Shown here in pieces: positions 720 through 19,037 of a stretch of DNA of 48,696 bases. The notes beneath the pieces were generated by a model. That model was not told the DNA's origin and searched no databases. It saw only the letters and a list, made by a program, of their open reading frames with translations. Source of the DNA: Bacteroidota bacterium (GTDB lineage: Bacteria > Bacteroidota > Bacteroidia > NS11-12g > UBA9320); NCBI GenBank assembly GCA_013359235.1, contig JABWCE010000023.1, positions 1 to 48,696 on the forward strand. The letters are read 5' to 3'. Positions within the stretch are counted from its first letter, which is position 1. Every line of letters starts with the position of its first letter. Made by a program: the position numbers and the translations under genes.

Positions 720-733
720 GCTAACAAGGTATT
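720..733. repeat. Left attachment core (attL)
   Basis: gctaacaaggtatt, identical to 18734-18747. It lies 40 bases after the stop of the cassette gene and about 60 bases before the left pair of gtacaaca arm-type repeats. Confidence 0.7.
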
Positions 734-1413: not shown

Positions 1414-2217
1414 ATGGCAAAACAAACAGGTCTATTAAGATACTCTGGCTCAATGGGTGGGGTAAGACATTTCAAAATCAAAGGACTGCAAGGCGACTTT
1501 GCAGGACTTGTAGGTGGTCCTACAGCAGAACAAATTTACAATGACAGTGCATTTGAGAGAACTCGTGAAAATATGAGTGAGTTCGGTGGGTGTGCATCAG
1601 CTGGTAAAGCTGTTCGTGTAGGGTTGTCGCAAATCATTAAGCAAATGAGTGATAGTCGTTTGACTGGTCGCTTAACTGCAATAATGAAGCAAATCAATTT
1701 AGAAGATACTGCAAACCCAAGAGGTCAAAGAAGTATTGAAATTTCAGCTTATCAAAATTTGATTGCTGGTATTAATTTCAATATCAATGTGAGCTTGTCA
1801 GGTATTTTCAATGCACCTTACACACTTACCAATAATACGGCAAGAGATAGTGCAACTTTTACAGTACCTGCATTTAATCCTGCAAGTTTGGTAAATGCTC
1901 CTGCCGGTGCTACACACTTCAGATTGGTAAATGCAATTGTGGGTATTTCTGACTGGGTTTATAATCCTGCCACAAGCAGTTATGAACCAACTGATCCAAC
2001 ACTAAATTCATTAAGTGATATTAGCTACTCTGCTTATTTGCCATTGAATGCTACTACTCCTGCAACAACTGTAACTACAAATTTACCTGGTACTCCTACA
2101 ATGACTGCAACAGTTAGCGTATTGAATTGTATCGGTATTGAGTTTTACCAACAAGTAGGTGGTAATTATTACCTATTTGCTCAAGGTAATGCACTTCGTT
2201 GCGATACTGTATTTTAA
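1414..2217 (+). CDS. Conserved Bacteroidota mobile-element protein, function unknown
   Basis: A 267-aa protein. The N-terminus (MAKQTGLLRYSGSMGGV, then GLVGGPTAEQIYNDSAFERTRENMSEFG) resembles a hypothetical family I recall from Bacteroidota genomes, with the layout M-A-K-Q-x-G-hh-x-h-x-G-(S/T)-h-G-G and then D-x-A-F-x-R-T-R-E-N-x-x-E-F-G-x-x-A-x-A-G-K. The C-terminal half is rich in T, N, A and P and looks like beta-rich repeats. There is no signal peptide or membrane segment. A strong intrinsic terminator lies 24 bases after the stop, so it is a single-gene transcript. It could be a structural, virion-like or surface protein; that is a guess from composition only. Confidence 0.75.
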   Translation: MAKQTGLLRYSGSMGGVRHFKIKGLQGDFAGLVGGPTAEQIYNDSAFERTRENMSEFGGCASAGKAVRVGLSQIIKQMSDSRLTGRLTAIMKQINLEDTANPRGQRSIEISAYQNLIAGINFNINVSLSGIFNAPYTLTNNTARDSATFTVPAFNPASLVNAPAGATHFRLVNAIVGISDWVYNPATSSYEPTDPTLNSLSDISYSAYLPLNATTPATTVTTNLPGTPTMTATVSVLNCIGIEFYQQVGGNYYLFAQGNALRCDTVF

Positions 2218-2266: not shown

Positions 2267-2895
2267 GTTTTATGGCCGTGCCATAGCTAAAAAAATATTC
2301 GCCTTGTTATGCCTTGCATCCTATTTCTCAAATTTGTGTAGGGGGGTTAAATATATAGGGCTTATGTGTGCTTTATATTGCTTTCAAATAGCAATTAAAT
2401 CAAATTTAATATCGTGGTCTAAGTAGTCTAAATAGTCTAAGTAGTATAGTTAGTTTAAGTATAGGTTTGTGTTGGACTTGGGTCATAGTCTAATTGTAGT
2501 AAAGCCATTAAATAGTTAGACTGATTAGACTTGTTGGACTTTGTCAAGTCGTTAAGCTGTGGGGATAGGGTCGGTATGCTTTCCTTTTGGGTGCTTCGGT
2601 CTGTTTGGATTGTTTCAAAGTATCGCCAATGCCCTAAAAGGGCAAAGACGAAACGAAACGCTGACCTGAGGCATAAACCCAAAGAGAGCAACCACAAGCC
2701 AAATGATAAACACGGCAACCAAGAGAAGGCGACCAAGAGAAAAAACGCCTACGAACCCTACGCTGGTGGGCAAAAGGCGAAACGGCTACTAAAGAGCCTG
2801 AATGACAAGAGCCACAACGGCAAACTGCTGAACTGGTGGCTGACTGTGAAATGTGCTGAACTGACATAATAAAAAAAATTTAATATGCTTTTCAT
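2267..2895. other. Non-coding region with 9-bp repeats
   Basis: No gene is supported here. It holds a small inverted repeat (tatggc/gccata, 2271-2285), the 9-bp repeat array at 2416-2460, reversed copies of the same motif (ttagact, about 2515-2526) and a 6-bp perfect hairpin tgccct-aaa-agggca (2631-2645). Open frames at 2531-2869 (plus) and on the minus strand overlap heavily, are low complexity and lack a recognisable start region, so I do not call them. Confidence 0.6.
2416..2460 (+). repeat. 9-bp tandem repeat array 1 (AGTCTAAGT type)
   Basis: Five abutting 9-bp units: ggtctaagt, agtctaaat, agtctaagt, agtatagtt, agtttaagt. Related arrays lie at 13361-13378 and, on the minus strand, 17257-17290. 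Units 3-4 match the minus-strand copy at 17257-17274 except for one base over 18. The spacing and repetition suggest binding sites for a protein encoded by the element (operator or iteron). Confidence 0.75.
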
Positions 2896-3052
2896 AGCAA
2901 GGGTGATAAAAAAACCAAAAGGAAACGGAATAAGTCCCGAAGGGTGCAAAAAAATAGGTGCAAATTTGGCTTTGCCTTGCAACTATTTTTTTTGCATTAT
3001 GCCGTAGTCTTTTGGTTTTTTTTGGTTGGCTTTGTGCGTTGCCACCCTTGCT
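2896..3052. repeat. Large structured hairpin H1
   Basis: Nested inverted repeats: outer stem 2896-2905/3043-3052 (10 bp perfect), middle stem 2908-2921/3009-3022 (14 bp, aaaaaaaccaaaag and complement), cggaataa/ttatgccg (2926-2933/2997-3004, one mismatch), and an inner stem 2945-2963/2977-2996. The middle parts are shared with H2 (3627-3798); the outer and inner stems differ in sequence but are paired in both. This points to a conserved structure, RNA or folded single-stranded DNA. Confidence 0.75.
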
Positions 3053-3107
3053 ACTTTTGCATATTTATATTTTTTTTATGGCAGGGTTCAGCATCATCAG
3101 TCCACCT

Positions 3108-3545
3108 TTAGCGTTTGCTGTGGAAATGCCTATATATTAAGGCTCTTTTGACATCGTTTAGCAATGCCATTTGTTCGTAAATCTGTTTTTGCTTACGTTC
3201 TATTAGTTTGAACTTGTGTACATCTTCTATAAAATCTTGTGGCTTTATGCTTACTCGGTTTGCTTGTTCTTTTACTATTTGCTTAAAATCGGAAATTCTT
3301 ATAAATGGAATAACTGACCCTGTATGATATGGGTAAAAGTGCTTTATTTTCCATAAGCCAAAAAGTAAGGTAGTGTAAAAGTCTTTTTCCTCTTGATTTT
3401 TACAAGCTACTACAAAGGAATTAGGGCAAGGCTTTTCAAGTGGTTTACCACTATTTAAGCCCTTGCATAAAACGAATACATCAAATTCATTGATTTGATT
3501 TTTAGGATTGAAAGTGTAAATTTTTACTAACTGCATAAGAAACAT
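3108..3545 (-). CDS. DUF6943-like small protein
   Basis: About 145 aa from the ATG at 3545, or 142 from 3536. The frame stays open upstream to 3716, but those residues (F-rich, no plausible protein) are encoded by hairpin H2 and are probably not translated. Conserved-looking segments are IYTFNPKNQ, KGLNSGKPLEKPCPNSFVV, F-Y-x-x-x-x-x-L-W and GSVIPFIRISDFKQ. They match my memory of the DUF6943 family of Bacteroidota mobile elements; the family name is from recall, not a search. The C-terminus is helical and charged (KLIERKQKQIYEQMALL). The gene is bracketed by the two related hairpins H1 (downstream) and H2 (upstream). Function unknown. Confidence 0.6.
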   Translation of the reverse strand: MFLMQLVKIYTFNPKNQINEFDVFVLCKGLNSGKPLEKPCPNSFVVACKNQEEKDFYTTLLFGLWKIKHFYPYHTGSVIPFIRISDFKQIVKEQANRVSIKPQDFIEDVHKFKLIERKQKQIYEQMALLNDVKRALIYRHFHSKR

Positions 3546-3626
3546 TGCTTTAATTGTTACCTGCTTTGTTCCTTGCTGTGGCGAAAACCAACAAATATTT
3601 TTACAAAGAAAAAAACAGAAAAAAAA

Positions 3627-3798
3627 GAAAGCATTCAAAGAGGTGGCGAAGGAAAAAAACCAAAAGGAAACGGAATAAGTGCCGAAGGCTGAAAGCCAAA
3701 TACCAATAAAAAACAATAGATTATTTGGCTTTCATTATGCCGTAGTCTTTTGGTTTTTTTGTAGCGTTGGCTTGTGTGAGCCACCTAACTTTGCTTTC
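3627..3798. repeat. Large structured hairpin H2 (relative of H1)
   Basis: Outer stem gaaagca + aggtgg (3627-3646) with ccacct + tgctttc (3781-3798). Middle stem 3653-3666/3747-3760 is identical to that of H1, followed by cggaataa/ttatgccg (3671-3678/3735-3742, one mismatch). The inner stem 3691-3702/3722-3733 is 12 bp perfect and unrelated to the H1 inner stem. It lies in the presumed 5' leader of the DUF6943-like gene. Confidence 0.75.
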
Positions 3799-3919
3799 CT
3801 TTTTATTCCTGTTGTTTTTTTTCTTTGGAAACTAATTTTTACTTAAAAAACCTTTTCAATATTCTATTTAATCAAAATGAAAATCCATTAATGAAGCGTT
3901 GGATTGGGGGTAATATGAC

Positions 3920-4144
3920 GTAGAAAAAATAAAGCATACCTACAGTAGTGGCGTTGGTTGAAAGCAAGTGTATGAGGTACGAAATACTCTTGCTGTGGGG
4001 TGCTAAAAATAATGTGTGAAATTTATGTAGTGCAATGAAGTGAAGGCAAATTTGCGATAGCCTGCCGAAACGAAATGAAATGCAATAAATGAACACTTTA
4101 TTTAGCACATTGGCATCAATAGAAAATGCTTTATTTTTTACTAC
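3920..4144. repeat. Branched inverted-repeat structure H3
   Basis: An 18-bp outer arm at 3920-3937 pairs with 4126-4144 (one bulged base). Inside are further paired segments: gcaag/cttgc around 3964-3993, tgctaaaaataatgtgt with acactttatttagca (4001-4017/4093-4107), and the palindrome gcaaatttgc near 4046. The motif gcgttgg occurs just 5' of the stem (3897) and inside it (about 3951). No coding frame is convincing here. Confidence 0.65.
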
Positions 4145-4180
4145 ACGTTTGAAAGGGTGGTTGGGGTGTGTGGCATAGGG

Positions 4181-4269
4181 GGGTGAAGCGTTGGCAAAAA
4201 ATACGGCTTCACCCTTGCATTAAAAAGAACCTTTGAAAAATAACTACTACCCTTTTTAATGCAAGGGTG
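4181..4269. repeat. Alternative hairpins H4
   Basis: Perfect 18-bp inverted repeat 4210-4227/4252-4269 with a 24-base loop. A second perfect 9-bp stem, gggtgaagc/gcttcaccc (4181-4189/4206-4214), has gttggc in its loop and shares bases 4210-4214 with the first, so the two cannot form fully at the same time. This is an attenuator-like arrangement, though no gene follows it closely. Confidence 0.65.
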
Positions 4270-4280
4270 CTAAGGTATTG

Positions 4281-4380
4281 GCTATTTAACATAATGTTCT
4301 TATAGGACATTTTTTGCGTTGGCATAGTCGCCTATTAGCGTTGGTAAAATGTACTATAAGGCAACATTATGTTATTTAGC
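4281..4380. repeat. Hairpin H5 with twin GCGTTGG loop motif
   Basis: Stem 4287-4298/4363-4374 (12 bp perfect), extended by cttata/tataag (4299-4304/4355-4360) and acatttt/aaaatgt (4307-4313/4346-4352). The 32-base loop holds gcgttgg twice (4316-4322 and 4338-4344) around a small ggc/gcc turn. Confidence 0.7.
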
Positions 4381-4386
4381 TTCAGG

Positions 4387-4555
4387 CAGTTTTTATACTG
4401 GCATAAGCGAAGTGGTGGTGGTGGTTGGAACGAAGCGTTTTTTTGTTGCTATGCTGTGTGCTGGCTTGGCTCTTTGGCTGTGGAATGAAATGGAATAGGC
4501 AATGTGCCAAGTGCTTTGGTAGCATAGCCACAAAAAATATGACAGTTAAAAACTG
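4387..4555. repeat. Hairpin H6
   Basis: Outer imperfect stem 4387-4400/4543-4555 and a 17-bp inner stem 4439-4455/4521-4537 with one mismatch. A G-rich tract with repeated gtggtg lies between the two 5' arms (4411-4425), and cttggc/gccaag pairs further inside. Confidence 0.6.
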
Positions 4556-4571
4556 ACTGCAATACCTTAGA

Positions 4572-4608
4572 GGGCTTTGTGTGTTGGCTCTGTGTGTTGG
4601 CAAAGCCC
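4572..4608. repeat. Hairpin H7 with duplicated loop motif
   Basis: A 7-bp perfect stem gggcttt/aaagccc (4572-4578/4602-4608). Its 23-base loop is two exact copies of gtgtgttggc separated by tct. It lies about 40 bases past the Argonaute stop codon, read on the minus strand. No T-run follows on either strand, so it is not a standard terminator. Confidence 0.65.
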
Positions 4609-4648
4609 AAAGCCGTATTTTTTTGTGGGTTGGCTTGGGGGGTGTATT

Positions 4649-6691
4649 TTATAGAAACCACAAATTATCTAAGCCAAAAGGTGGTACATCCATATTCTCA
4701 AAGAAAGGTACTTTTTGGGCTACCATTTCAGGGTAAAGGATTGTTACTGGTATTCCGTTTTGCCTTACACTTTTCCAATACATTCTGCTGAATTGATATA
4801 CTTGGTCTATGAGTTCTTTTATTGTTTCGGTGTTGTCTATTATGCCTTCTTTGTTGGCACTAAATTTTAATTTGATTGGAAAGGGCAAACCGTCTGTTGC
4901 TCTTGGTTCTTTTTTAGGATAACGAGTATTATTGCATAGCAAATATTCATCATCGCCAATACTTAAATATGTACCACTTAATGGCATTAGTTTGTTGTAC
5001 GCTGTATCAAATATTACAAGGTCTTTACTTTCCGTTTTATTGATAGTGATAATGATTACAGGTATATCATCTTCTATTTTTTTTATTTCATCCTCTATTG
5101 GTTTGAGTTCTGCATAGGACATTGATTTGTAGAAGTGAATAATAAGTCTTTCTGCTTTTTCGTTTTTGGCTTTGAAAGTTCGTATTGCTTTAGCAATAGA
5201 ACCGCCCAAAAGGTCGGGTTGATTTGCTGGCAAACATTCAAAACCTTTGAAGTGTCCATCATTTGAAAAACAAAAGGCACTACCAATAAAACGCTGTCCT
5301 ATTTCTTGATTTTTGAATGCTCCTACACCTACTATTAGTTCTTTGTCAGGGTCTCTTTTTAAACGCCACGGCACACCACCTAATTTAGCAATTGTGGCTA
5401 CCGATATAGGTGGAAAGAAAAAGTTGAAATTGTATTGGTAGAATTTGTTACTATCCATAGCTTGGGAAGTAACTCTATGCCTTAGTAATTCTTGTTTTAC
5501 TAAATAGTATTGTAGCTTGTGTATTGGGTCTTTTTCATCACTGCCAAATGGCGTAATGTAAAAGGCAATGTAACGACTATCTTCATCTAATTTGGCATCA
5601 AAAAAATGGTCTCTTACTTCATCTATAATCGTATCTAAGGAATTAAATACAATATTGTTTGCTGTATCTTCTGAAAATAAAAGTCTAGCATAAGTAGTTA
5701 TCCCTTTAAAGCCCTTTTTCTCTCCTTGTAGCCATTGTTTAAGTAGCTTGTATTTTGGTTCATCGTCTTTGTGATAAATGAAAATGAATTTTATGTGCTT
5801 ACTGGTAGGCAGGGTACAAGGACCATATTCCTTTACACCCTCGTAAGGGTCTTCCCACGGCTTGTCTCCTCCAAAAATTAAGGTGTTCATTTCATCGGAA
5901 GTGTGTTTTTCTTCTCCTTCTTGTACTGAAATATAACTTTTAGAAGTAATAGGAATAACAGCCTTAAATTCGTCTGTATTTAGAAATTTAGTAAATAAGC
6001 CCTTAATATTTTTTAAATAAGTGTTGTATTTGTCATCGTCTTTGTTGGGTTTAAATTCTACGCCTAAAGGTGCATATAATTCATAACGCATTTTAGGATA
6101 TACATTTTCTAATTTATAGTATGCTTCATCAGGTAAGCTGTCGTATTTGTATAAACTGCCTTCATATACCACCCAATTGTATAGCTTGGTATCGCAACCT
6201 ATTTCGGTTACACTCTTTTTGGCTATTTTAGAAATGCCTTCATACGATATTACTAACTCTGGTGTTTGGGTAATTTTTGCAATTTGAACTTTGATTGTAA
6301 AAACAGAATAGCCGGTATAATTTTCATTATCAGATTTAGTGTGTGTAATCCATATTTCGTTATCGTGTATGAAGTTTGACTTTATTAAATCTACTTTGTC
6401 TTTAAAGTAATTGTAAATAAGATAGTTGTAATAGTGTTTTGCAATGCCTGGACTAATCTCAAAATCTATTTCAGTATTTAAGATTGGGTCTGCATCTTCT
6501 TGAAAATTAGTGTATAGTTTATACAGTTTTGCTCTCCTTTCAACAGGATATTTATTTAATAAATGTTCTGGTATTTCTTCTTTCTTAATAGGATAGTAAC
6601 CCTCTTTCTTTTCGGCTATGAAATGAAAAGATTTTTTAGTAACTGGGTGACTAAATTGTAAAACATTTAATATTAATTTCTGACTGCTCAC
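4649..6691 (-). CDS. Catalytically inactive prokaryotic Argonaute (pAgo)
   Basis: A 680-aa pAgo, expected to bind a nucleic-acid guide and a complementary target. Domains: N-terminal region about 1-285, then a MID domain starting near GPC (290-292) with the 5'-phosphate pocket pattern Y-Y-L-V-K-Q (395-400) and S-Q (409-410), then KLGGVPW (436-442) and PIWI to the C-terminus, which ends in the usual hydrophobic L-W-F-L. Slicer residues look absent: the first Asp position in I-V-G-V-x-A is Gly457, and the segment usually reading H-R-D-G is H519-F-Y-K. Start is GTG at 6691, 12 bases after the GIY-YIG stop; no in-frame ATG lies between. It is last in a six-gene operon. Length and inactivity suggest a long-B type, which in known cases works with a separate effector. 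Class is inferred. Confidence 0.87.
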   Translation of the reverse strand: MSSQKLILNVLQFSHPVTKKSFHFIAEKKEGYYPIKKEEIPEHLLNKYPVERRAKLYKLYTNFQEDADPILNTEIDFEISPGIAKHYYNYLIYNYFKDKVDLIKSNFIHDNEIWITHTKSDNENYTGYSVFTIKVQIAKITQTPELVISYEGISKIAKKSVTEIGCDTKLYNWVVYEGSLYKYDSLPDEAYYKLENVYPKMRYELYAPLGVEFKPNKDDDKYNTYLKNIKGLFTKFLNTDEFKAVIPITSKSYISVQEGEEKHTSDEMNTLIFGGDKPWEDPYEGVKEYGPCTLPTSKHIKFIFIYHKDDEPKYKLLKQWLQGEKKGFKGITTYARLLFSEDTANNIVFNSLDTIIDEVRDHFFDAKLDEDSRYIAFYITPFGSDEKDPIHKLQYYLVKQELLRHRVTSQAMDSNKFYQYNFNFFFPPISVATIAKLGGVPWRLKRDPDKELIVGVGAFKNQEIGQRFIGSAFCFSNDGHFKGFECLPANQPDLLGGSIAKAIRTFKAKNEKAERLIIHFYKSMSYAELKPIEDEIKKIEDDIPVIIITINKTESKDLVIFDTAYNKLMPLSGTYLSIGDDEYLLCNNTRYPKKEPRATDGLPFPIKLKFSANKEGIIDNTETIKELIDQVYQFSRMYWKSVRQNGIPVTILYPEMVAQKVPFFENMDVPPFGLDNLWFL

Positions 6692-6703
6692 TATGCTTTC
6701 ATT

Positions 6704-7534
6704 TTAACTGTTTAATTTATTTCTGTACACTTCATCTAAGGTTTGCCCTTTGGCTGTTTTCCATACTATCCACCCATTTTGACTACTGCCTGAACAAAAA
6801 TCGCAAGCTGTACTTGGGCTTGAAAAAGTATTGTCAATATGTAATACCAATTTATTGCCTTGCTGTTCGGTAAGTTCTTGCAATAGCTTGTTTCGCTTAT
6901 CAGGCCATATAAATGAGGGTACATTATCAGGATTTACGGTACTACCTTTTAACACTGTAAAACCGTTTTCATCATAAAAGCCTTTGGCTTCTATACCTCT
7001 GCTTTTTAGGTGAAATATTGTTTTGCCTTTTTGCTCTATTTTCTCAAAAATCAAGCATCCTACAAATGAGGTCAATAGTTTTACATCTTCAAAAAATTCT
7101 TCTGTACTGCTTTGTATATGCTCTGGCAAATTGGGTGCTTTGGGTATTTGTTTGTTTTCGTCAGTATTGTAGCGTTTGGTTTGGTGGGCTAAGGCTACAG
7201 CCAAATGCTCTAAGTATTGCACATTGGCTTTGTGTAAACTGCTATCATTACTTATAAATACCAATGCTCTTTGCCAAAAGTCTTTTTTATTGTCGTGGTG
7301 TTTAATTCTATCTGCAAAGTTTTCTGTTTCGCCTAAATAGGCTTTTGGTAGCTGGTTTTCATCTTCGCCCAAGAGTATATAAAATGCAGGGCTTTTGAGT
7401 TCTGCCCTTTTGTTTACTATATCTAACTCACTTCTTGGAATAAGTAACAGTTTACAGATTTTGTTATCTATAAAAATGCTTCTTACTCCTTGTGGGTTGC
7501 CATCTATGAGGTATGTTGTAATTGTTTTGCCCAT
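6704..7534 (-). CDS. GIY-YIG nuclease with C-terminal DUF4357
   Basis: A 276-aa protein. The GIY-YIG core is F51-Y-I-L then Y66-L-G, with R76 and E109 in the expected places (D-R-I-K-H-H; Y-L-E-H-L), so the nuclease should be active. The C-terminal part (about 225-270), with A-C-D-F-C-S-G-S-S-Q-N-G-W-I-V-W-K and G-Q-T-L-D-E-V-Y, fits DUF4357, which is often found next to type I-like restriction-modification genes. Its start codon overlaps the stop of the upstream ATPase gene (TAATG), implying coupled translation, and the Argonaute starts 12 bases after its stop. It is the best nuclease candidate to act with the inactive Argonaute; this is inferred from position only. Confidence 0.85.
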   Translation of the reverse strand: MGKTITTYLIDGNPQGVRSIFIDNKICKLLLIPRSELDIVNKRAELKSPAFYILLGEDENQLPKAYLGETENFADRIKHHDNKKDFWQRALVFISNDSSLHKANVQYLEHLAVALAHQTKRYNTDENKQIPKAPNLPEHIQSSTEEFFEDVKLLTSFVGCLIFEKIEQKGKTIFHLKSRGIEAKGFYDENGFTVLKGSTVNPDNVPSFIWPDKRNKLLQELTEQQGNKLVLHIDNTFSSPSTACDFCSGSSQNGWIVWKTAKGQTLDEVYRNKLNS

Positions 7535-9324
7535 TAATTGATTGCCTTTATTTGTAATAAAATATCAAAAAGTGGTTTAAATCCATCAAAATCAGACTTA
7601 ACGAATTTTGAAGTATTGTAAGCCAAGATATTTTTTGATTTTAGTTTTATGTCAGTTGCAACATCTTCAATTGGTTTAGCTTTAAAATATCCCTTTGTTT
7701 TGTCTAATGCTTCTATATATGCTTCCTCATATTTAGAACCATCATAAAAGTTCTCTACCGTAAAGTCTCCTTTCCAATTCTTTGGTACTGGATAGAGCAA
7801 CCCAAAAAATTCTTTTGAAGGTGGTGCATCATTATTTGATTTCAATTGCAAAATGGGGGCATTTGTTTTATCAAAATTTGCTTTTACAGCTTCTCTTCCT
7901 TCTTTATCTTCATCGTATAAACCAATTACCTTTTTATTTTTTATATAACCGCTATTTGATAAGCCAATGAGTAACTGTTTGATATTCGTAGCTCCATTCA
8001 TATCAAATATGTCAAATTTCAAAGTAGGGAAATCACTAGATAAGTGTTTCAATGCCTCCTTTATATGTGTTTTATCGTGCCAACCTTCAACTAATAAAAT
8101 ATCATTTTTTGCATTTAGAAATAAACTTTGCTCTTGATAGCTCCAAGTGCCATTTGTAAGCTTTTCAATTAATTCTATTTTATCATTCTTTTCAATAGAA
8201 ACTTGCCCTGCCTCTTTAACAACAGATATAATATGTTTAATATCAAAATTGTGTGTAAGAGTTGGACTATGTGTTGTTAATACATTTTTTCTCTTGCTGT
8301 ATTTATCTATCAAATCTTTGATTAATTCCTTTCTTGAAATATGTATATGACTATCAGGTTCATCTAATAAAATTAAACTTTCATCATCTGCCAATATTTC
8401 TAAAATGAACTGTAATAAGATAAGTTTCTTTTCTCCTTCACTAAAACAAGTGCTATCTATAGTGCCGTTAAAATCTATTCTTATTTCGGGCAGTATTTTT
8501 TCCTTAGCTGGCATATAAGCCGTAGTAAGCAGGTTGAAAAAATACTTATCTGTATTGTTGTCTAAAATATCTGTTAGCTCTGCAAGTGTAAGTGTGTTGC
8601 TTTTCTTTTTTTGTGGATTGAGTTTTGTTACTAATTGTATGGTTTCGGTTTGTGGGTACTTTTTGTATTTTACAGGATTAAATGAAAAATGAATATTATC
8701 TACAGTTTGGATATTTAAAACATCTTTTAAGAAGCTGTCTAACTCTTTATTTACTTGCCCTTGTCTATTGTTTAGCTCTTGGCGATAAAGCATAGTAAGC
8801 AAAGCTAAATCCCAATAGTATTTATTAACGAAAAACAGTTTTTGCGTAATGGAAGGCAGTTTGCCAATGGAAAGAAACTCGGCTGTGAAACTGCTGTAAA
8901 ATGGCCAATAAAAAATATCAAACAACCTGCCTTCTTCTCCACTATAATTGGCTATGACTTGAGAGGGCAATAATTCTTCTGACCTTTTAAAAAAATCGGA
9001 AGGTATCATATCTATATCATCTACTTTAAAACTAAAACTTGTAGCATTGGTGTATTCAGCTTTTATGTTTTTAGTACCTATGGTATATTCAATTTTATAA
9101 TCAAATGGCGACTGTGTGCCTTTGGGTTTATTGGCTTTACGAAATATTTTATGTGGGTCTTGTAGATACAAACCACCAAATATGCCACTAATTGCCTCTA
9201 CAATATTACTCTTACCACTTCCGTTATTACCAATAATCACCGATACATTTTCATTATCTGAAAAATCAATATCTAATTGATTGAGGTTTTTATATTGCTC
9301 TATGTATAATTTAACTAATTGCAT
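7534..9324 (-). CDS. OLD-like AAA ATPase with TOPRIM domain
   Basis: 596 aa from the ATG at 9324, 4 bases past the hsdS stop; a longer frame to 9357 would overlap hsdS. The N-terminus is an SMC/RecF-type ATPase: Walker A G-N-N-G-S-G-K-S (33-40), an S-E-G-E-K-K signature, and Walker B L-I-L-L-D-E-P-D with a following H-I-H. The C-terminal third has TOPRIM motifs: I-L-L-V-E-G-W-x-D (catalytic Glu) and G-L-Y-D-E-D (DxD). OLD-family proteins are ATP-regulated nucleases with several roles in phage defence (P2 Old, Gabija GajA, retron partners). Here it sits between hsdS and the GIY-YIG gene. It could replace the missing HsdR motor or be a second nuclease. Confidence 0.85.
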   Translation of the reverse strand: MQLVKLYIEQYKNLNQLDIDFSDNENVSVIIGNNGSGKSNIVEAISGIFGGLYLQDPHKIFRKANKPKGTQSPFDYKIEYTIGTKNIKAEYTNATSFSFKVDDIDMIPSDFFKRSEELLPSQVIANYSGEEGRLFDIFYWPFYSSFTAEFLSIGKLPSITQKLFFVNKYYWDLALLTMLYRQELNNRQGQVNKELDSFLKDVLNIQTVDNIHFSFNPVKYKKYPQTETIQLVTKLNPQKKKSNTLTLAELTDILDNNTDKYFFNLLTTAYMPAKEKILPEIRIDFNGTIDSTCFSEGEKKLILLQFILEILADDESLILLDEPDSHIHISRKELIKDLIDKYSKRKNVLTTHSPTLTHNFDIKHIISVVKEAGQVSIEKNDKIELIEKLTNGTWSYQEQSLFLNAKNDILLVEGWHDKTHIKEALKHLSSDFPTLKFDIFDMNGATNIKQLLIGLSNSGYIKNKKVIGLYDEDKEGREAVKANFDKTNAPILQLKSNNDAPPSKEFFGLLYPVPKNWKGDFTVENFYDGSKYEEAYIEALDKTKGYFKAKPIEDVATDIKLKSKNILAYNTSKFVKSDFDGFKPLFDILLQIKAIN

Positions 9325-9328
9325 AACA

Positions 9329-10693
9329 CTATAAAAAAATTGTTTCTTCAAATTCAAGAATAGCTTTTTCCTTATTGTTCTTAGAACTTTTATGTAGCTC
9401 CTTAATTTGGTTTTTTAAATTGCTTATGTATTTATTTATTTCATTTTGTTTTTTAATTGGTGGAATAGGAATTAAAAGTTCATCTAAAAAACTTTTTGGC
9501 ACTCTTTGCTGACCTGCTGAACCTGTGAAAGTTGAAGTTGCTTTTTCTCTTACTAATTTTGTTCTTAGAAGATTGTAAATAAACTCAATGCTTATTCTTT
9601 CACTTTGTGCTCTTAAAACGTGATATTCAGTAGAACCGTAACCATAACCATTAAGTAAATTATTCGTTATTGCACTCTTTCCATTTTCCATACAAGGTGT
9701 AATTTTTGCCCATAACAAATCACCATTTTTAAACTTTGTATATCCTTTAGATTTTTGTATTGTTCCTGTTTGTGTATAGCTAATTTCTCCATATTCATCA
9801 GATATACATTCCATAGGTATAAATGACAAATCGTTAAATGACAAATCGTTAAAATTGGTTGAAGGATTTATTTCTACATAATTCTTTAATAAATCATTAT
9901 TGTAAATTGAAGAGTGTAATATTTTATTAATTGCAATACCACCAATATTGTACTCAACACCCCACTTTGATAACTCTTTGTAACGAATAAAATTAATACC
10001 TTTTCTTTTTTGCTCTTTTTTAATTTCTATTCCAAGTTCTTTAAATAAAAATTTATCAATTTCTATTTGCAATTCACTTGCTTTATTGTTTTCAGCAATA
10101 CTCTTATTAAATAGGTTAAAATATCCATCGGATATTTTAGTTTGTTTTTTTAATGGTGGCAATGGTATTTCCAAATTCAAAAACTTTTCTTCGTGGAAAC
10201 GCTTTAATGCAGAACCTGTATTGAAGTCGGCTATTTTTTCATAAAATCGTTTTGAGGTTAAAACAAGGTTGAGGTATTGGGGCGACACTCTATCAGTATC
10301 AATAGTAAAAGCTGGAAACTCATTACTAACAAAGTAATTATCAAAATCTTTATTTATTAAGCCAAAAGAACCACTGGAAGCACCTAAACGAGAATAGACT
10401 AAATCACCTTCTTTTAATTCCCATAAATACTTGGCTTTAATATTGTTTCCTTTCTTTGTTTCTCTGTGAAATACACCCAAGCCATACGATTTTACCCCTA
10501 AAAGATTATAATCCTTTGTTGGTTGTAAAAACTCAACTCTTTTTACCTGTGTTAATACATCGGCTAACCTTACAAAATCGTAATCAGAATTTTCTTTGTT
10601 GTCAAAAATTCTATTCTTTTTAACATCCCAAAGTGATAGGCTTTTGAACCGAACAAACTGCAAATAATTGTATGTGGGAAGGTTTGCTGTCAT
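9329..10693 (-). CDS. hsdS: Type I restriction-modification specificity subunit (HsdS)
   Basis: 454 aa from the ATG at 10693, one base past the upstream stop; ATGs at 10705 and 10723 are also in frame. It has two target-recognition domains with the normal half-repeat layout: TRD1 (about 20-175) ends in L-E-I-P-L-P-P-L-K-K-Q followed by a helical spacer, and TRD2 (about 230-425) ends in L-L-I-P-I-P-P-I-K-K-Q followed by a second coiled-coil. It gives DNA sequence specificity to the methylase/nuclease subunit encoded just upstream. The start of TRD2 contains an exact 15-bp tandem duplication (9821-9850) that repeats the residues N-D-L-S-F. Confidence 0.93.
   Translation of the reverse strand: MTANLPTYNYLQFVRFKSLSLWDVKKNRIFDNKENSDYDFVRLADVLTQVKRVEFLQPTKDYNLLGVKSYGLGVFHRETKKGNNIKAKYLWELKEGDLVYSRLGASSGSFGLINKDFDNYFVSNEFPAFTIDTDRVSPQYLNLVLTSKRFYEKIADFNTGSALKRFHEEKFLNLEIPLPPLKKQTKISDGYFNLFNKSIAENNKASELQIEIDKFLFKELGIEIKKEQKRKGINFIRYKELSKWGVEYNIGGIAINKILHSSIYNNDLLKNYVEINPSTNFNDLSFNDLSFIPMECISDEYGEISYTQTGTIQKSKGYTKFKNGDLLWAKITPCMENGKSAITNNLLNGYGYGSTEYHVLRAQSERISIEFIYNLLRTKLVREKATSTFTGSAGQQRVPKSFLDELLIPIPPIKKQNEINKYISNLKNQIKELHKSSKNNKEKAILEFEETIFL
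9821..9850 (-). repeat. 15-bp tandem duplication inside hsdS
   Basis: aaatgacaaatcgtt occurs twice head to tail. It keeps the frame and adds five residues to the second target-recognition domain. Slippage between copies would give in-frame length variants. Confidence 0.9.
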
Positions 10694-10694
10694 A

Positions 10695-12980
10695 TTATTT
10701 TTCATAGATAGTTTCAGGTTCACAAACTACATTGCTAACTACTCTTGTTCTTTTCATTTCTCCATTTATTTCATCATACTTTACATAGCCATCCAAATGC
10801 TTCCATAAGTTGCTTTCTTTGGCATATACTTTAAATTCTTTGGCTACATCAATTAACTCATTCTCACATTCTGCACCTGTGCTAGTTATACCTGCTTTCT
10901 CTACTTCTACAATGGCAATTTCATAGTCAAATTTATCTTTGATAATCAACTTTAAATCTTCTTGTCTTTGAAGTTCTAATTTCTTTAATGCCTCTGTATA
11001 TTCTTTTTTATCGGCTTTCTTTTGTTCTTTGGCCTTGGCATTGTATTCTGTTTCTAAAGCTTCAATTAGTGGAAGATATTTTATATCTAATTCAGCATTG
11101 CCATTAGCCACAATTGTATTATACTGCTCTGTTTCGGTATCTGTAAACTTTTTAAGGAAAAGCAAACTTGGTTTTACAGTAGCACCACTGGCAATGAATA
11201 CATCTTGAGGTATGGAAGTAATATTTAAGATTTTTGCTTTGCCTTCTACATAATCTCTAATACTTTGTAAACTACTTGTATTTAGAACACCCTCTGGTAA
11301 TACTATGCCCATTCTGCCACCTGGCTTTAATAAATTAAGACATCTTTCAATAAATAAGACTTCTGTAAGACCTGTTCTTTTACCCACTTCAAATAGGTCT
11401 AATATTGGTTTTCCTTTTCCTTTACCATTGTCAAAATTTGCCCATTCTTTTAGTGGTGCTACTACATTATTTAAGTAGTCGTACTCTTTGTATTTTTCTG
11501 TATAGTATTTTACTTCCTCATCTGTTGGAATATCTAAAGGACTAACGACTAATGTTTTTTCCACTCTTGCACCAAATGGTGGATTGGTTAATATGACATC
11601 AAAACGGTTGTCAAAAATTCCGTTTACATTTAACAAACCATCGTGGTGGTGAACGCCACCGTGTCCATCACCGTGCATTATCATATTCATTTTTGCAGTT
11701 CTTGCCATACGAGGGTTGGCATCTGTACCGTAAATACAATTATAGCTTAGTGTTCTTAATCTACCTGTAGGATTTTGCAGGTCTAATTCGTAATTGATTT
11801 GGTTAAATAGTTCTTCTACTTTTTTTGTAATCGCTTCTTGCTTTTTCTCTGAAAGGTTTGCAAAATCATCGGTATAGTATTGCTCTCTTATGGCATCTTT
11901 AGACTTTTGAATTTCATTTTCTATTTTTTCTCTAACATATTCAAATGCTCTAATCAAAAATCCACCACTACCACAGCAAGGGTCGCAAATGGTTTCTCCT
12001 TCTTGTGGATCAAGTATATCAACAATATAATTAACTATTGTTCTTGGTGTAAAAAACTGCCCTAATTCACCTCTAAATGTTTTGCCTAAAAATTCTTCAA
12101 ATGCAATTCCTTTTATATCATCGCTGGTATCAGATAGGTTGTATTTTTCTAATTCCTTAACAATTTCTAAAAAGCTGTTTTCTCTGATTTTGATACTATC
12201 GTTTTCATCAAATATTTTATCGTTTTCAAATACTTTTTTTGTTCTATCAAACAACTCTTGATAAAAGGGTTTACCCACACCGCCTGTAATTTCATCGTGT
12301 GCTTTTTTAAGTTCAATAAACTTAGATTTTGAAAATAGTTGTCTTTTGGTTGCTTGTTCTCTTTCATACCGAATTTTCATAAAGAGAATTTTGCTGATTT
12401 CATCAAATGCACCCTCTGGACTTAGTTTATCATTATTACGAATAATATTGTGGCATCTAAAAAGTAGTTTTGAAAAATCATCTCTTGTAAAAGTCTTGGT
12501 TTGATTAGCTAATTCTTCAAGCCTTTTTTTATCAGTTAACTCATTTGCTTTGGGAATTTCAATAATTTCATCTAATTCATCAGGTAGCAATTCTTCATTA
12601 ACCCTAAAAAATTTTGTATTCTTTAGATTAGTTGTAACAAAGAATTTAGCTTTAGCCCAAGAAGCATAGTTTGCACCTTGATAGTAGTCGTCTTTACGGA
12701 TAGATACTTGTTCGGCTTTACACTCTATTACTATGATAGGTTTTTTTCTTCCTTTCTTATCTTCTGCCGAAGCCCATATTAAAATATCTGCCCTTGCTTT
12801 ACCTAGCCCTCTTTTGGAATTATTTACTTGCACTTCTTGAGCCATTTGGTCTAATGAATAGCCATAATATTCAACCAAGTGTTTGATATACTCCTGTCTT
12901 ACTGTTTCCTCTGGGGTTTCAATAAGATATTCATTTTTAAGTGGTGCAAATATTTTATTGCCTTTGCGTTGTATATCCAT
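10695..12980 (-). CDS. PD-(D/E)XK nuclease-N6-adenine methylase fusion (HsdM-like)
   Basis: A 761-aa subunit. Residues about 1-140 form an HSDR_N-type PD-(D/E)XK nuclease domain: E30, D65 in A-R-A-D-I-L, and E86-C-K88 after a hydrophobic strand. The rest is an HsdM-type methylase: helical N-terminal domain (about 165-300), G-Q-F-F-T-P (307-312), motif I D-P-C-C-G-S-G-G-F (333-341), catalytic motif IV N-P-P-F-G (466-470), and a lysine-rich helical C-terminal region. A single protein could thus modify and cut, with sequence recognition by HsdS. A conventional type I HsdR has the same nuclease domain joined to a DEAD-box translocase; no translocase is encoded here. Start and upstream stop overlap as TAATG. 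Confidence 0.9.
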   Translation of the reverse strand: MDIQRKGNKIFAPLKNEYLIETPEETVRQEYIKHLVEYYGYSLDQMAQEVQVNNSKRGLGKARADILIWASAEDKKGRKKPIIVIECKAEQVSIRKDDYYQGANYASWAKAKFFVTTNLKNTKFFRVNEELLPDELDEIIEIPKANELTDKKRLEELANQTKTFTRDDFSKLLFRCHNIIRNNDKLSPEGAFDEISKILFMKIRYEREQATKRQLFSKSKFIELKKAHDEITGGVGKPFYQELFDRTKKVFENDKIFDENDSIKIRENSFLEIVKELEKYNLSDTSDDIKGIAFEEFLGKTFRGELGQFFTPRTIVNYIVDILDPQEGETICDPCCGSGGFLIRAFEYVREKIENEIQKSKDAIREQYYTDDFANLSEKKQEAITKKVEELFNQINYELDLQNPTGRLRTLSYNCIYGTDANPRMARTAKMNMIMHGDGHGGVHHHDGLLNVNGIFDNRFDVILTNPPFGARVEKTLVVSPLDIPTDEEVKYYTEKYKEYDYLNNVVAPLKEWANFDNGKGKGKPILDLFEVGKRTGLTEVLFIERCLNLLKPGGRMGIVLPEGVLNTSSLQSIRDYVEGKAKILNITSIPQDVFIASGATVKPSLLFLKKFTDTETEQYNTIVANGNAELDIKYLPLIEALETEYNAKAKEQKKADKKEYTEALKKLELQRQEDLKLIIKDKFDYEIAIVEVEKAGITSTGAECENELIDVAKEFKVYAKESNLWKHLDGYVKYDEINGEMKRTRVVSNVVCEPETIYEK

Positions 12981-13273
12981 TAATCTTTCTTTTTTATTTT
13001 TTTAGTAAGTTGTTTAATTGCTTCATTCGCCAAAGGCTCGCCATCAATGACACTATACATTTGGTCGGCTAACCACAAGGTGGTTAACTCTTTTTCGTCA
13101 GTTTTTAGGATTTTGGCTAAATGAGGGATTTGCTCCTTTTTTAGTGTTCTTTCTCCTCTTTCAATTTTACTTAACAGAGGCGTATCAATATCTATAAATG
13201 GGGCAACCTGCCTAAGTAGCAGGTTGTTTTCCTCTCGTAATTGCCTTATTTTAGAACCAAAATGATTAGACAT
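12980..13273 (-). CDS. XRE-family HTH regulator of the operon
   Basis: 97 aa from the ATG at 13273. The frame is open to 13330, but a promoter -7 element lies in that extension, so the shorter start is preferred. The HTH domain is clear: I-R-Q-L-R-E-E-N-N-L-L-L-R-Q-V-A, then L-L-S-K-I-E-R-G-E-R-T-L-K-K-E-Q-I-P-x-L-A-K-I-L. The C-terminus is short and basic. As first gene of the operon it most likely acts as an autoregulator (C-protein-like), delaying nuclease expression until methylation is complete. Its stop overlaps the start of the next gene. Confidence 0.87.
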   Translation of the reverse strand: MSNHFGSKIRQLREENNLLLRQVAPFIDIDTPLLSKIERGERTLKKEQIPHLAKILKTDEKELTTLWLADQMYSVIDGEPLANEAIKQLTKKIKKKD

Positions 13274-13307
13274 ATTTAATTGCTTATTTTGACTTGCCAA
13301 ATTTTGA

Positions 13308-13336
13308 CAAATATAAGCATAAAAAAGCAAACCAAA
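13308..13336 (-). promoter_or_regulatory. Promoter of the Argonaute/RM operon
   Basis: On the minus strand: TTTG (13333-13336), 17 bases, then TATATTTG (13308-13315). This is an exact fit to the Bacteroidota TTTG-N17-19-TAnnTTTG promoter. The predicted start is near 13301, giving a leader of about 28 bases. Two 9-bp AGTCTAAGT repeats lie 24 bases upstream of the -33 element. Confidence 0.7.
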
Positions 13337-17292: not shown

Positions 17293-18510
17293 TTATTTGA
17301 TATATTGATCTACTGCCTTGTCTAATTCTTCACTAATAATTTTTGCGTAAATCTGTGTGATACCAATATCTGTATGGTCAAGCAATTTAGAAACGTGCTC
17401 AATTCTCATTCCATTGTTTAGAGCATTGGTAGCAAAAGTATGACGGCTTAAATGGAAACTTAATGTAAAGGGCAAACCAATTGCCTTACCAATACTTCTT
17501 AAATGCCAATTGGCTATATGTCCATTTCTTTCTGTTTCAGTGTACTGGTAACGAATATCTGCAAAATATCTTTCCTTGTCTGCTATCAATGGAAAAACCA
17601 AATCATCTGCCTTTGATAGTGGTGTTTTGTACTTTCTTAAAATGCCTAAAGCTGTTTCGCCTAATTTGAAACTATGCTGTCTGCCTGTTTTACGAATGGT
17701 TTTAGTTATTCTGTTTTCAACTTCATTAAATGATTTCCATTGAAGCTCCATCACATCGCCAAATCTTAAACCGCCTCCAAAGACAGAGAATAAAAACATA
17801 TCTCTACAAATTTCGCCTTTGCCCTCTGTAGTTATTTTGTAGCTTCTAAATTGTTCTAACTGTTGCTGGTTCAAAAATAATCGTGTGCCTTTTTCTTTCT
17901 TTACTTTCACACTTGCAAAAGGATAAACATTGGCTGGTATAATTTCCTCACGGATTGCCTCTTTGAACATTATGGATAAAATGAGCAACGAATAATGAAC
18001 AGAAGTATTGCTATTTTTCAAAGTAGTACTGCAATAGTTAGCATAGTCTTTTAGCATTGTAACTGTAATATCCTCAAAATCCAATTCTTTTGTGCCTGCA
18101 AATTTTTCAAATTTTTCTGTGTACCTTTTGTAATTCATTTGGGTTCTAAGGCTTAATGTGCCTTTGATTTTTTCGCAACGGTCATAAGCATAAGTAAAAA
18201 AATTAGTACGGTCTTTTCCCTTGATAGCTTCTTTCAACTTCTTAGCTGAAACTGATTTTTTCTTTCTTTCAAGGTCTGCAACTTGCCCTTCTGCATCTGC
18301 TACCTGTTGCGACAAAAAAGCATTCATCCTGGCACTATTGGGGTGGTTCTTTTTTATCTTCTGTTTTGCTTCGTCCCATTCGTTAGGTAATAGCTTTACG
18401 CCTGTAGTAATGAATTTAGTTTTACGGTCTTTGATAACTCGCAAATACAATGGACTATGCCCTGCCTTGTCTGTTTGGTGCTGTCTTAAAATTAGTTTTA
18501 CACTTGCCAT
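17293..18510 (-). CDS. Tyrosine recombinase / integrase
   Basis: 405 aa. It catalyses site-specific integration and excision of the element. Layout: arm-binding N-terminal domain (about 1-95), SAM-like core-binding domain (about 100-200) and catalytic domain (about 215-400). All six catalytic positions are visible: R249 (G-G-G-L-R-F-G-D), K274, H353 and R356 (H-L-S-R-H-T), H379 (L-D-H-T) and nucleophile Y388 (T-Q-I-Y-A). The family is that of Bacteroidota ICE integrases with an N-terminal Arm-DNA-bind_5/SAM_5 pair. It lies at the right end of the element, reading inward, 224 bases from the attachment core. A long leader contains an inverted repeat (18532-18550/18583-18597), and the promoter overlaps an arm-type site. 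Confidence 0.95.
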   Translation of the reverse strand: MASVKLILRQHQTDKAGHSPLYLRVIKDRKTKFITTGVKLLPNEWDEAKQKIKKNHPNSARMNAFLSQQVADAEGQVADLERKKKSVSAKKLKEAIKGKDRTNFFTYAYDRCEKIKGTLSLRTQMNYKRYTEKFEKFAGTKELDFEDITVTMLKDYANYCSTTLKNSNTSVHYSLLILSIMFKEAIREEIIPANVYPFASVKVKKEKGTRLFLNQQQLEQFRSYKITTEGKGEICRDMFLFSVFGGGLRFGDVMELQWKSFNEVENRITKTIRKTGRQHSFKLGETALGILRKYKTPLSKADDLVFPLIADKERYFADIRYQYTETERNGHIANWHLRSIGKAIGLPFTLSFHLSRHTFATNALNNGMRIEHVSKLLDHTDIGITQIYAKIISEELDKAVDQYIK

Positions 18511-18733: not shown

Positions 18734-18747
18734 GCTAACAAGGTATT
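18734..18747. repeat. Right attachment core (attR)
   Basis: gctaacaaggtatt, identical to 720-733. To its right the sequence continues as chromosomal cassette repeat. Confidence 0.7.
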
Positions 18748-18832: not shown

Positions 18833-19037
18833 TGCTAAAAATCCGTCACATCGTCAATACGCAAAACGTCAGACTGTCTAAAAACTCATCACTTTTCTTT
18901 ATAAAATGTGCAATAGTTTATCGCTTTTTTCTTCCAATACACATTGCCGCTTGAATATTTTAATTTTACTTTTGATACTTTTGAGTTTTTAGACAAACTG
19001 ACGTTTTTAAGTATTCTATATAATTATTGAAATTAAA

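Follow-up and report, generated by a model that had tools for sequence, protein, structure and literature searches.

Recurrent hairpins and a large folded-DNA region in integrated elements of Bacteroidota: candidate single-strand initiation sites

Why should a mostly non-coding stretch of 1.7 kb in a bacterial genome carry so many strong inverted repeats? The question is raised by positions 2896–4608 of contig JABWCE010000023.1 (assembly GCA_013359235.1) of a Bacteroidota bacterium (lineage NS11-12g; UBA9320), of which positions 1–48 696, here called the window, were analysed. The original prediction described seven large hairpins, H1–H7, and offered three kinds of explanation: single-strand replication or transfer origins, structured RNA read through from an Argonaute operon, and folded recombination sites. 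The inverted-repeat arms of all seven were recovered at or near the predicted positions. They do not form a uniform array, since two different elements are present: one is a hairpin of about 95 nt, present twice as H1 and H2, and the other a larger fold made up of H3–H7. Nor is there only one small gene amongst them; the DUF6943 gene does lie between H1 and H2, but a second small conserved open reading frame (ORF), of 77 aa, abuts H1. On balance, H1/H2 probably represent a Bacteroidota-wide single-strand initiation hairpin of conjugative and mobilizable elements.

Folding with DNA energy parameters, compared with 30–40 dinucleotide shuffles per region, gave z-scores of −8.7 for H1 (2870–3085), −8.5 for H2 (3590–3850), −4.3 for H3 (3905–4150), the weakest fold of the set, and −13.6 for H4–H7 (4180–4640). 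The comparison stretch 3100–3580, within the DUF6943 gene, gave −1.3. Amongst 243 segments of 200 nt, each with 12 shuffles, those starting at 4201, 3601 and 2801 ranked first to third for over-folding. H1 and H2 are homologous: they have a common core in which changes are compensatory (CCCGAAGGG/GCCGAAGGC), and their variable stems differ. H4–H7 are nested in an outer stem (4196–4209/4610–4623; AAAAAATACGGCTT/AAGCCGTATTTTTT, 14/14), and a second enclosing stem is formed by 4270–4280/4560–4570.

The whole hairpin region was unmatched in six genomes of the same genus, and a search of the whole 1.77 kb region against 97 genomes gave, besides the window itself, matches of about 30–40 nt in only seven. 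Because this search was nearly empty, the family was sought with a pattern built on H1/H2, AAACGGAATAAN{38,68}TTATGCCGTA, which matched at least 119 genome stretches; amongst the matches listed, both arms were present in 112 of 119. ACGGAATAAGTNCCGAAGG is present in four of 394 other genomes of the class, and the reversed pattern matches one of 395. The window and the gathered loci together contained 130 pattern sites, 123 with both flanking arms; the seven without them (L044, L075, L078, L095, L119, L130 and L139) were dropped, and the record titles of four of these name two Spirochaetes, one Lachnospiraceae and one Chlorobiota. Viral contigs gave six pattern matches, two with both arms (L015 and L017), and a plasmid search with the hairpin of an integrative and mobilizable element (L047) gave none. 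A covariance model, R1, built from 60 members that include both copies in the window, matched 28 of 395 genomes of the class (its own included), in 23 of 196 genera, and 17 of 296 genomes drawn from the phylum, a sample with some members in common with the class set. This survey does not require the exact pattern, yet its model was built from pattern members. Each matching genome has one to three hairpin matches, and the family therefore lacks the many dispersed copies per genome of REP/RAYT-type repeats. Three family hairpins lie within 1.4 kb, close to DUF6943, at locus L112.

Unpaired arms, or a lack of compensatory changes, in homologues had been named beforehand as grounds for doubt; the arms survived and covariation was found. 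In the hairpin alignment A1, comprising 60 of 110 distinct members, 93.6 % of cells were paired, compared with 82.6 % after shuffling. Changes on both sides of a pair were seen in 175 cells, against a shuffled mean of 53 (none of 500 shuffles was as high) and at most 70 under slid versions of the structure; they affect 14 of the 28 hairpin pairs in the structure drawn from H1/H2. These cells are sequences rather than events, and the counts ignore relatedness between rows. The eight pairs of the core stem are invariant in this alignment because the pattern fixed them, members carrying AAACGGAATAA..TTATGCCGTA by construction, so that this invariance is partly circular. In the pattern-free model survey the core stem is nearly constant, and its rare changes look paired (L156, L174 and L175). 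Beside the nearly invariant stem ACGG.AATAA/TTAT.CCGT there is an internal bubble, also conserved, in which GAA faces AGT or AAG.

Orientation provides a second line of evidence. Sixteen hairpins, in 12 elements, share a contig with a relaxase gene no more than 70 kb away; in all 16 cases the relaxase is encoded on the strand opposite the hairpin, and in 15 it lies to the left. The 70 kb limit was set after the positions had been seen, and hairpins without a relaxase that near stand outside the 16. The families searched were PF03432 in 28 genomes, a set that did not include G631, G635, G643, G658 and G718, and MobB NF041495 in 33. In the gathered loci, most of which are 8 kb long, relaxases are encoded on the opposite strand in 18 of 20 cases and MobA genes in 22 of 25. 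If relaxase genes enter last here, as they do in most transfer systems, the + strand of the hairpin would be the transferred strand, with the genes to its left templated on it. In F-type leading regions genes are templated on the transferred strand, and the genes left of the hairpin may be arranged likewise.

About 50–170 nt separate the hairpin from the genes that it precedes, ssb, DUF932, parB, DUF6943 and radC amongst them. Of the 123 members, 74 have a minus-strand gene as their nearest neighbour to the left, 35 have a plus-strand gene and 14 have none; 21 of the 35 plus-strand neighbours encode DUF3408, 106–112 nt from the hairpin. Except in these 21, the siting upstream of ssb and establishment genes resembles that of the Frpo/ssi sites of F-type plasmids. 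In six chosen gene clusters only, 54 distinct hairpin-to-ATG intervals measured 51–168 nt (DUF6943, 20; SSB, 13; DUF932, 11; RadC, 4; YubB, 2; an unnamed family, 4). The cluster names SSB, DUF932, RadC, YubB, MobA, relaxase and DUF3408 were mostly assigned by reading sequences; family scans confirm DUF6943, the genes of locus L235, and SSB at four hairpins (G294, G321, G381 and G252), where domain PF00436 starts 82–151 nt away on the opposite strand. TAnnTTTG, part of the Bacteroidota −33/−7 promoter (TTTG..TAnnTTTG), occurs in none of the 54 intervals, compared with a mean of 4.7 in shuffles of single bases rather than dinucleotides.

In addition, an A-rich box ending AAAAGAAAGC, searched for within 160 nt of the hairpin, lies 22–29 nt to its left in 98 of 116 distinct members; control stretches had the box in six of 2031 cases. 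H1-type hairpins precede an ORF of 70–78 aa ending LPF at 27 places (25 distinct), the LPF ending being a search condition. In 23 of the 25 distinct cases the ATG is 50–53 nt from the core motif, and the coding signal is modest (codon-position differences 8559/7425/11138). At locus L235 the order, with other ORFs between, is a weak MobC/VirD4-type match, a MobB relaxase, BfmA, SSB, hairpin, a TIGR03299 match below the model cut-off, hairpin, ParB and hairpin. This single putative leading region has three hairpins, and two of these immediately precede a gene of their own. Locus L236 has two hairpins in a similar order, assigned in part by eye.

The region containing H3–H7 matches 24 other gathered loci, and a different kind of evidence bears on it. 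In 20 aligned fold sequences (L066, L058 and L144 were dropped from 23; alignment A3 retains 20 of 22, leaving out L066 and L144), the pairs predicted on both strands comprise 2030 Watson–Crick, seven G-T, eight A-C and 46 other combinations. Such common pairs number 105, at least two Watson–Crick types being seen in 47, and the two strands fold nearly equally (−94.0/−90.1). RNase P, taken through the same pipeline from 25 of 26 Bacteroidia genomes searched, gave 683 Watson–Crick, 33 G-T, nine A-C and 32 other combinations in its common pairs, and its strands are unequal in folding (−45.5/−21.8). The G-U excess expected of a structured RNA is thus absent from the large fold (G-T 7/A-C 8, against 33/9 for RNase P), and an RNA reading of this fold was rejected on this control. 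For 25 of the 50 predicted pairs of H6, one or more of the 20 sequences carry changes on both sides, and there are no cells with a change on one side only. As the common pairs are almost purely Watson–Crick, the strands fold nearly equally and the changes in H6 are two-sided, the alignment indicates that the large fold evolves as DNA.

The loop of H6 contains GGTGGTGGTGGTTGG, a (GGT)4 sequence that could form a two-tier G-quadruplex. A model of H6 matched 22 of 395 genomes of the class (its own included); eight of the matches are strong (E 1.8e-35 or better) and the others weaker and more distant. Amongst 11 stretches around such matches, eight have beside the fold either the gene module described below or island-type cargo, namely restriction-like, recombinase and Argonaute-like genes named by eye. 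In L228, L229 and L231 neither lies directly beside the match, which may reflect chance or other uses. The fold is found near one end of several islands. It may be the main single-strand origin or a mimic of a transfer origin, a role less certain than that of the hairpin.

Rfam, applied at gathering score to the window, to 12 loci and to 17 loci, left the hairpins unmatched and returned only tRNA and Flavo-1. In six of the 17 loci scanned (L100, L032, L064, L017, L090 and L144), Flavo-1 (RF01705) is located just to the right of the large fold and on its strand; it may be a further part of the module, or may be another DNA fold that has been classed as RNA.

These observations suggest the following scheme. 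On transfer, the + strand of the window would enter the recipient single-stranded, and each hairpin would fold into a short duplex, presenting the conserved bubble beside the nearly invariant stem. Host machinery, most likely RNA polymerase, would start an RNA there that runs leftwards, in most members across the A-rich box. This RNA may prime the complementary strand before the element is double-stranded, and may also express the adjacent gene early: the 77-aa ORF after H1 and DUF6943 after H2, and in relatives ssb, DUF932/TIGR03299, parB or radC. H3–H7 would make up a single, larger element of folded DNA, at this end of the island as well. We infer the single-stranded state, the enzyme and the transcription from the logic of Frpo (PMC11541004) and of sso1, a single-strand origin (sso) of the integrative and conjugative element (ICE) ICEBs1 (PMC4595007); the hairpin may act as a promoter or as a primase site.

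No description of the hairpin or of the large fold was found amongst the papers listed in searches of the open-licence PMC literature. Several known systems offer parallels. Integron attC sites work as folded single-stranded DNA, their structure being conserved more than their sequence; the present hairpin may share the folded single-stranded state, but its core sequence is nearly invariant and it lies away from the likely attachment (att) repeats. The ssiA and ssiB sites of RSF1010 are primase-recognised hairpins at which primers start on single strands, and they need the plasmid's own primase. The use of hairpins as primer start sites would be similar here, but no single protein was seen to accompany all the hairpins. 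There is also a likeness to Frpo/ssi, the single-stranded promoters of F-type plasmids (PMC11541004, citing Masai and Arai 1997): a folded hairpin in what is probably the leading region, before ssb and establishment genes, in several copies per element and on a fixed strand. The word 'bacteroid' is absent from the main text of that paper. The present hairpin differs in having no recognised −35/−10 consensus, in its Bacteroidota hosts and in its extra conserved A-rich box, and the likeness noted is one of arrangement and fold, its promoter activity being putative. The sso sites of rolling-circle plasmids and sso1 of ICEBs1 are likewise orientation-specific folded single-strand sites, found on plasmids and on an ICE (PMC4595007). 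In Bacillus, sso1 follows nicK, the gene for the relaxase, on its downstream side (PMC4595007), whereas the present hairpin usually precedes other genes, and its sso function is putative. The hairpin may thus be a counterpart of Frpo, ssi and sso in its working; membership of these families is not claimed.

Several observations weigh against single-strand initiation at H1/H2 and against the evidence for folded DNA. In the 21 DUF3408 members no gene would be expressed leftwards. Two of the 20 relaxases and three of the 25 MobA genes are on the hairpin's own strand (L062, L076 and L124), and the window's own genome has no PF03432 or NF041495 relaxase, these being the only two families searched. 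The H1 copy in the window lacks the A-rich box. The hairpin consensus has no match to the −33/−7 promoter, the nearest sequence, TA(GTC/AGC)TTTTG, having the wrong spacing. Pairing in the hairpin distinguishes DNA from RNA less well than in the large fold, and its counts are mixed: G-T 30 and A-C 9 in the alignment of 60 members, which excludes rows whose small hairpin is shifted, but G-T 18 and A-C 15 on 110 members. For the large fold, predictions from single strands are biased (+ strand alone, G-T 46/A-C 8; − strand alone, G-T 8/A-C 40), and only the common-pair set is free of this bias. Finally, the core hairpin sequence is missing from two 2.7 kb plasmids whose A-rich flank matches (70 nt, 84.5 %) and which have a fold at that place, the flank and fold themselves counting in favour of initiation.

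These plasmids also bear on the first alternative, a doubtful one, in which the hairpin is a complementary-strand origin only (an sso or a primase assembly site) and its position before genes merely reflects operon borders. One plasmid is annotated with mobV and repL, the fold lying between them, and the other with repL only; neither has an annotated establishment gene next to the fold, and the related flank and fold are suggestive of an sso-type role. The DUF3408 members, with no leftward gene, fit such an origin equally. It accounts less readily for the 54 hairpin-to-ATG intervals of 51–168 nt, which precede several unrelated genes with no TAnnTTTG between, and for the two hairpins of L235 that stand directly before their own gene. 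Beside the plasmid fold, positions 1737–1804 of L147 form a 68-nt stretch common to six Riemerella plasmids at 97 %, a candidate origin of transfer (oriT) for mobV.

Similarly unlikely is that H3–H7 form an oriT, or an oriT mimic, for a relaxase supplied in trans, with H1/H2 as leading-region companions. The lack of the two relaxase families from the genome of the window, and the position of the fold near the end of islands, would suit this. No nick motif was identified, and in the 11 stretches, which were inspected by eye and not by family scan, no relaxase was recognised next to the fold; the relaxase searches of genomes covered PF03432 and NF041495 only.

It is improbable that the hairpins are structured RNAs, or that they serve the minus-strand genes as RNA leaders, whether riboswitch-like or attenuators. 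Their constant distance before genes, a small minus-strand loop that is UNCG-like (TTCG, TCCG or TGCG) and the higher of the two G-T counts are what RNA leaders might show; the rare and equal G-T and A-C pairs of the large fold, its nearly equal strands, the differing behaviour of RNase P, the lack of one-sided changes in H6, the lack of Rfam matches to the hairpins and the DUF3408 members all speak against them. The more specific proposal of an RNA read through from the Argonaute operon also finds no support: an Argonaute matching that of the window was found in only three of 126 oriented loci, the window included and most loci being 8 kb long, and the large fold has no G-U excess in the pairs common to both strands.

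Less probable still are bidirectional terminators, or quasi-palindromes kept perfect by template switching during replication, with no selected function. The A- and T-runs flanking the stems and their near-perfect Watson–Crick symmetry would be expected, but neither process requires a core stem, bubble and A-rich box that are nearly invariant across distant hosts, or a consistent strand relative to relaxases. Folded recombination sites of the attC kind, or REP-type transposon ends, are very improbable despite the occurrence of hairpin arrays in mobile DNA, given one to three matches per matching genome, fixed positions before genes and likely att repeats elsewhere (720–733 and 18734–18747). 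Single-strand replication or transfer origins are, of the options first offered, the best fit to the conjugation-type neighbours, the constant strand relative to relaxases, the siting before ssb- and parB-type genes and the DNA-like covariation of the large fold.

H1–H7 belong to an integrated element that is probably bounded by the two copies of a 14-bp direct repeat, GCTAACAAGGTATT, found at 720 and at 18734 (Table 1). The module comprises, in order, the SNase gene, a gene that we call MAKQ, the 77-aa ORF, H1, DUF6943, H2 and then H3–H7. The MAKQ cluster lies on the plus strand, left of the hairpin, in 24 hairpin loci (the window included), and scans of the protein against Pfam, PHROG and NCBIfam gave no family match. 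The Argonaute ORF (4649–6691; PADLOC pAgo, E 1.1e-241) and type I restriction–modification genes likewise lie between the likely att repeats, and the outer stem of the H4–H7 fold ends at 4623, 26 bp ahead of the end of the Argonaute ORF. The minus-strand defence cargo at 4649–13330 consists of pAgo, a PDC-S14 protein, an ATPase (best match to PtuA models) and type I specificity and methyltransferase subunits. Argonautes related to that of the window follow the large fold in L065 and L069, as do Argonaute-like ORFs, recognised by eye, in L232 and L234. At its start (1–100) the contig lies within an 85-bp repeat of sequence from immediately right of the element (18891–18998), and region 1–719 may therefore represent a further insertion or a break in the assembly. 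In L143 a tRNA gene (5302–5374) lies immediately left of the SNase gene of the module; some islands of this kind may integrate at tRNA genes.

Table 1. Features of the hairpin region and of the surrounding element, by position in the window
Feature	Position	Strand	Remarks
GCTAACAAGGTATT, left copy; likely left att end	720–733	+	Direct repeat
SNase-domain gene, leftmost gene of module	827–1318	−	Family scan
MAKQ protein (name coined in this analysis), 267 aa, part of module	1414–2217	+	
77-aa ORF, conserved, starting just left of H1	2634–2867	−	ORF comparison
H1 with outer stem (2897–2905/3043–3051)	2897–3051	+	
H1 core: CCAAAAGGAAACGGAATAAGT..variable stem..TTATGCCGTAGTCTTTTGG	2915–3015	+	R1 covariance match, E 2.9e-19
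DUF6943 gene, ATG 114 nt from H2	3108–3545	−	PF22105, E 3.4e-44
A-rich box CAAAGAAAAAAACAGAAAAAAAAGAAAGC	3604–3632	+	22–29 nt left of hairpin in relatives
H2 with outer stem (3641–3647/3780–3786)	3641–3786	+	
H2 core: second copy, compensatory changes relative to H1	3660–3753	+	R1 match, E 5.1e-21
H3, first part of larger conserved region; arms 3924–3937/4126–4139, 14/14 bp	3924–4139	+	
Main body of large fold: H4–H7 within single outer stem	4196–4623	+	
H4; arms 4210–4227/4252–4269, 18/18 bp	4210–4269	+	Long form; relatives short or different
H5; arms 4281–4298/4363–4380, 89 % paired	4281–4380	+	
H6	4387–4558	+	
GGTGGTGGTGGTTGG in H6 loop	4414–4428	+	Identical in 20/20 aligned sequences
H7	4571–4608	+	
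Tyrosine integrase of element	17293–18510	−	phrog_1, E 1.8e-40
GCTAACAAGGTATT, right copy; likely right att end	18734–18747	+	Direct repeat

A wider and more tentative reading is that H1–H7 belong to phylum-wide folded-DNA regulators, in which a small hairpin would act as a single-strand promoter for the establishment genes of Bacteroidota conjugative elements, and a DNA fold of 0.4–0.75 kb with an invariant (GGT)4 loop, selected for its structure as DNA and not as RNA, would be used by defence-carrying islands when they start up in a recipient. Long structures selected as DNA are rare, and the large fold would be one. Second-strand synthesis and the first genes of conjugative DNA in a new host are known mainly for Proteobacteria and for some Firmicutes elements. 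A conserved, searchable signal in the Bacteroidota, a major gut and environmental phylum, would reveal transferred strands, leading regions and early genes, and DUF6943 and the 77-aa ORF would be amongst the unknown early genes made recognisable from sequence.

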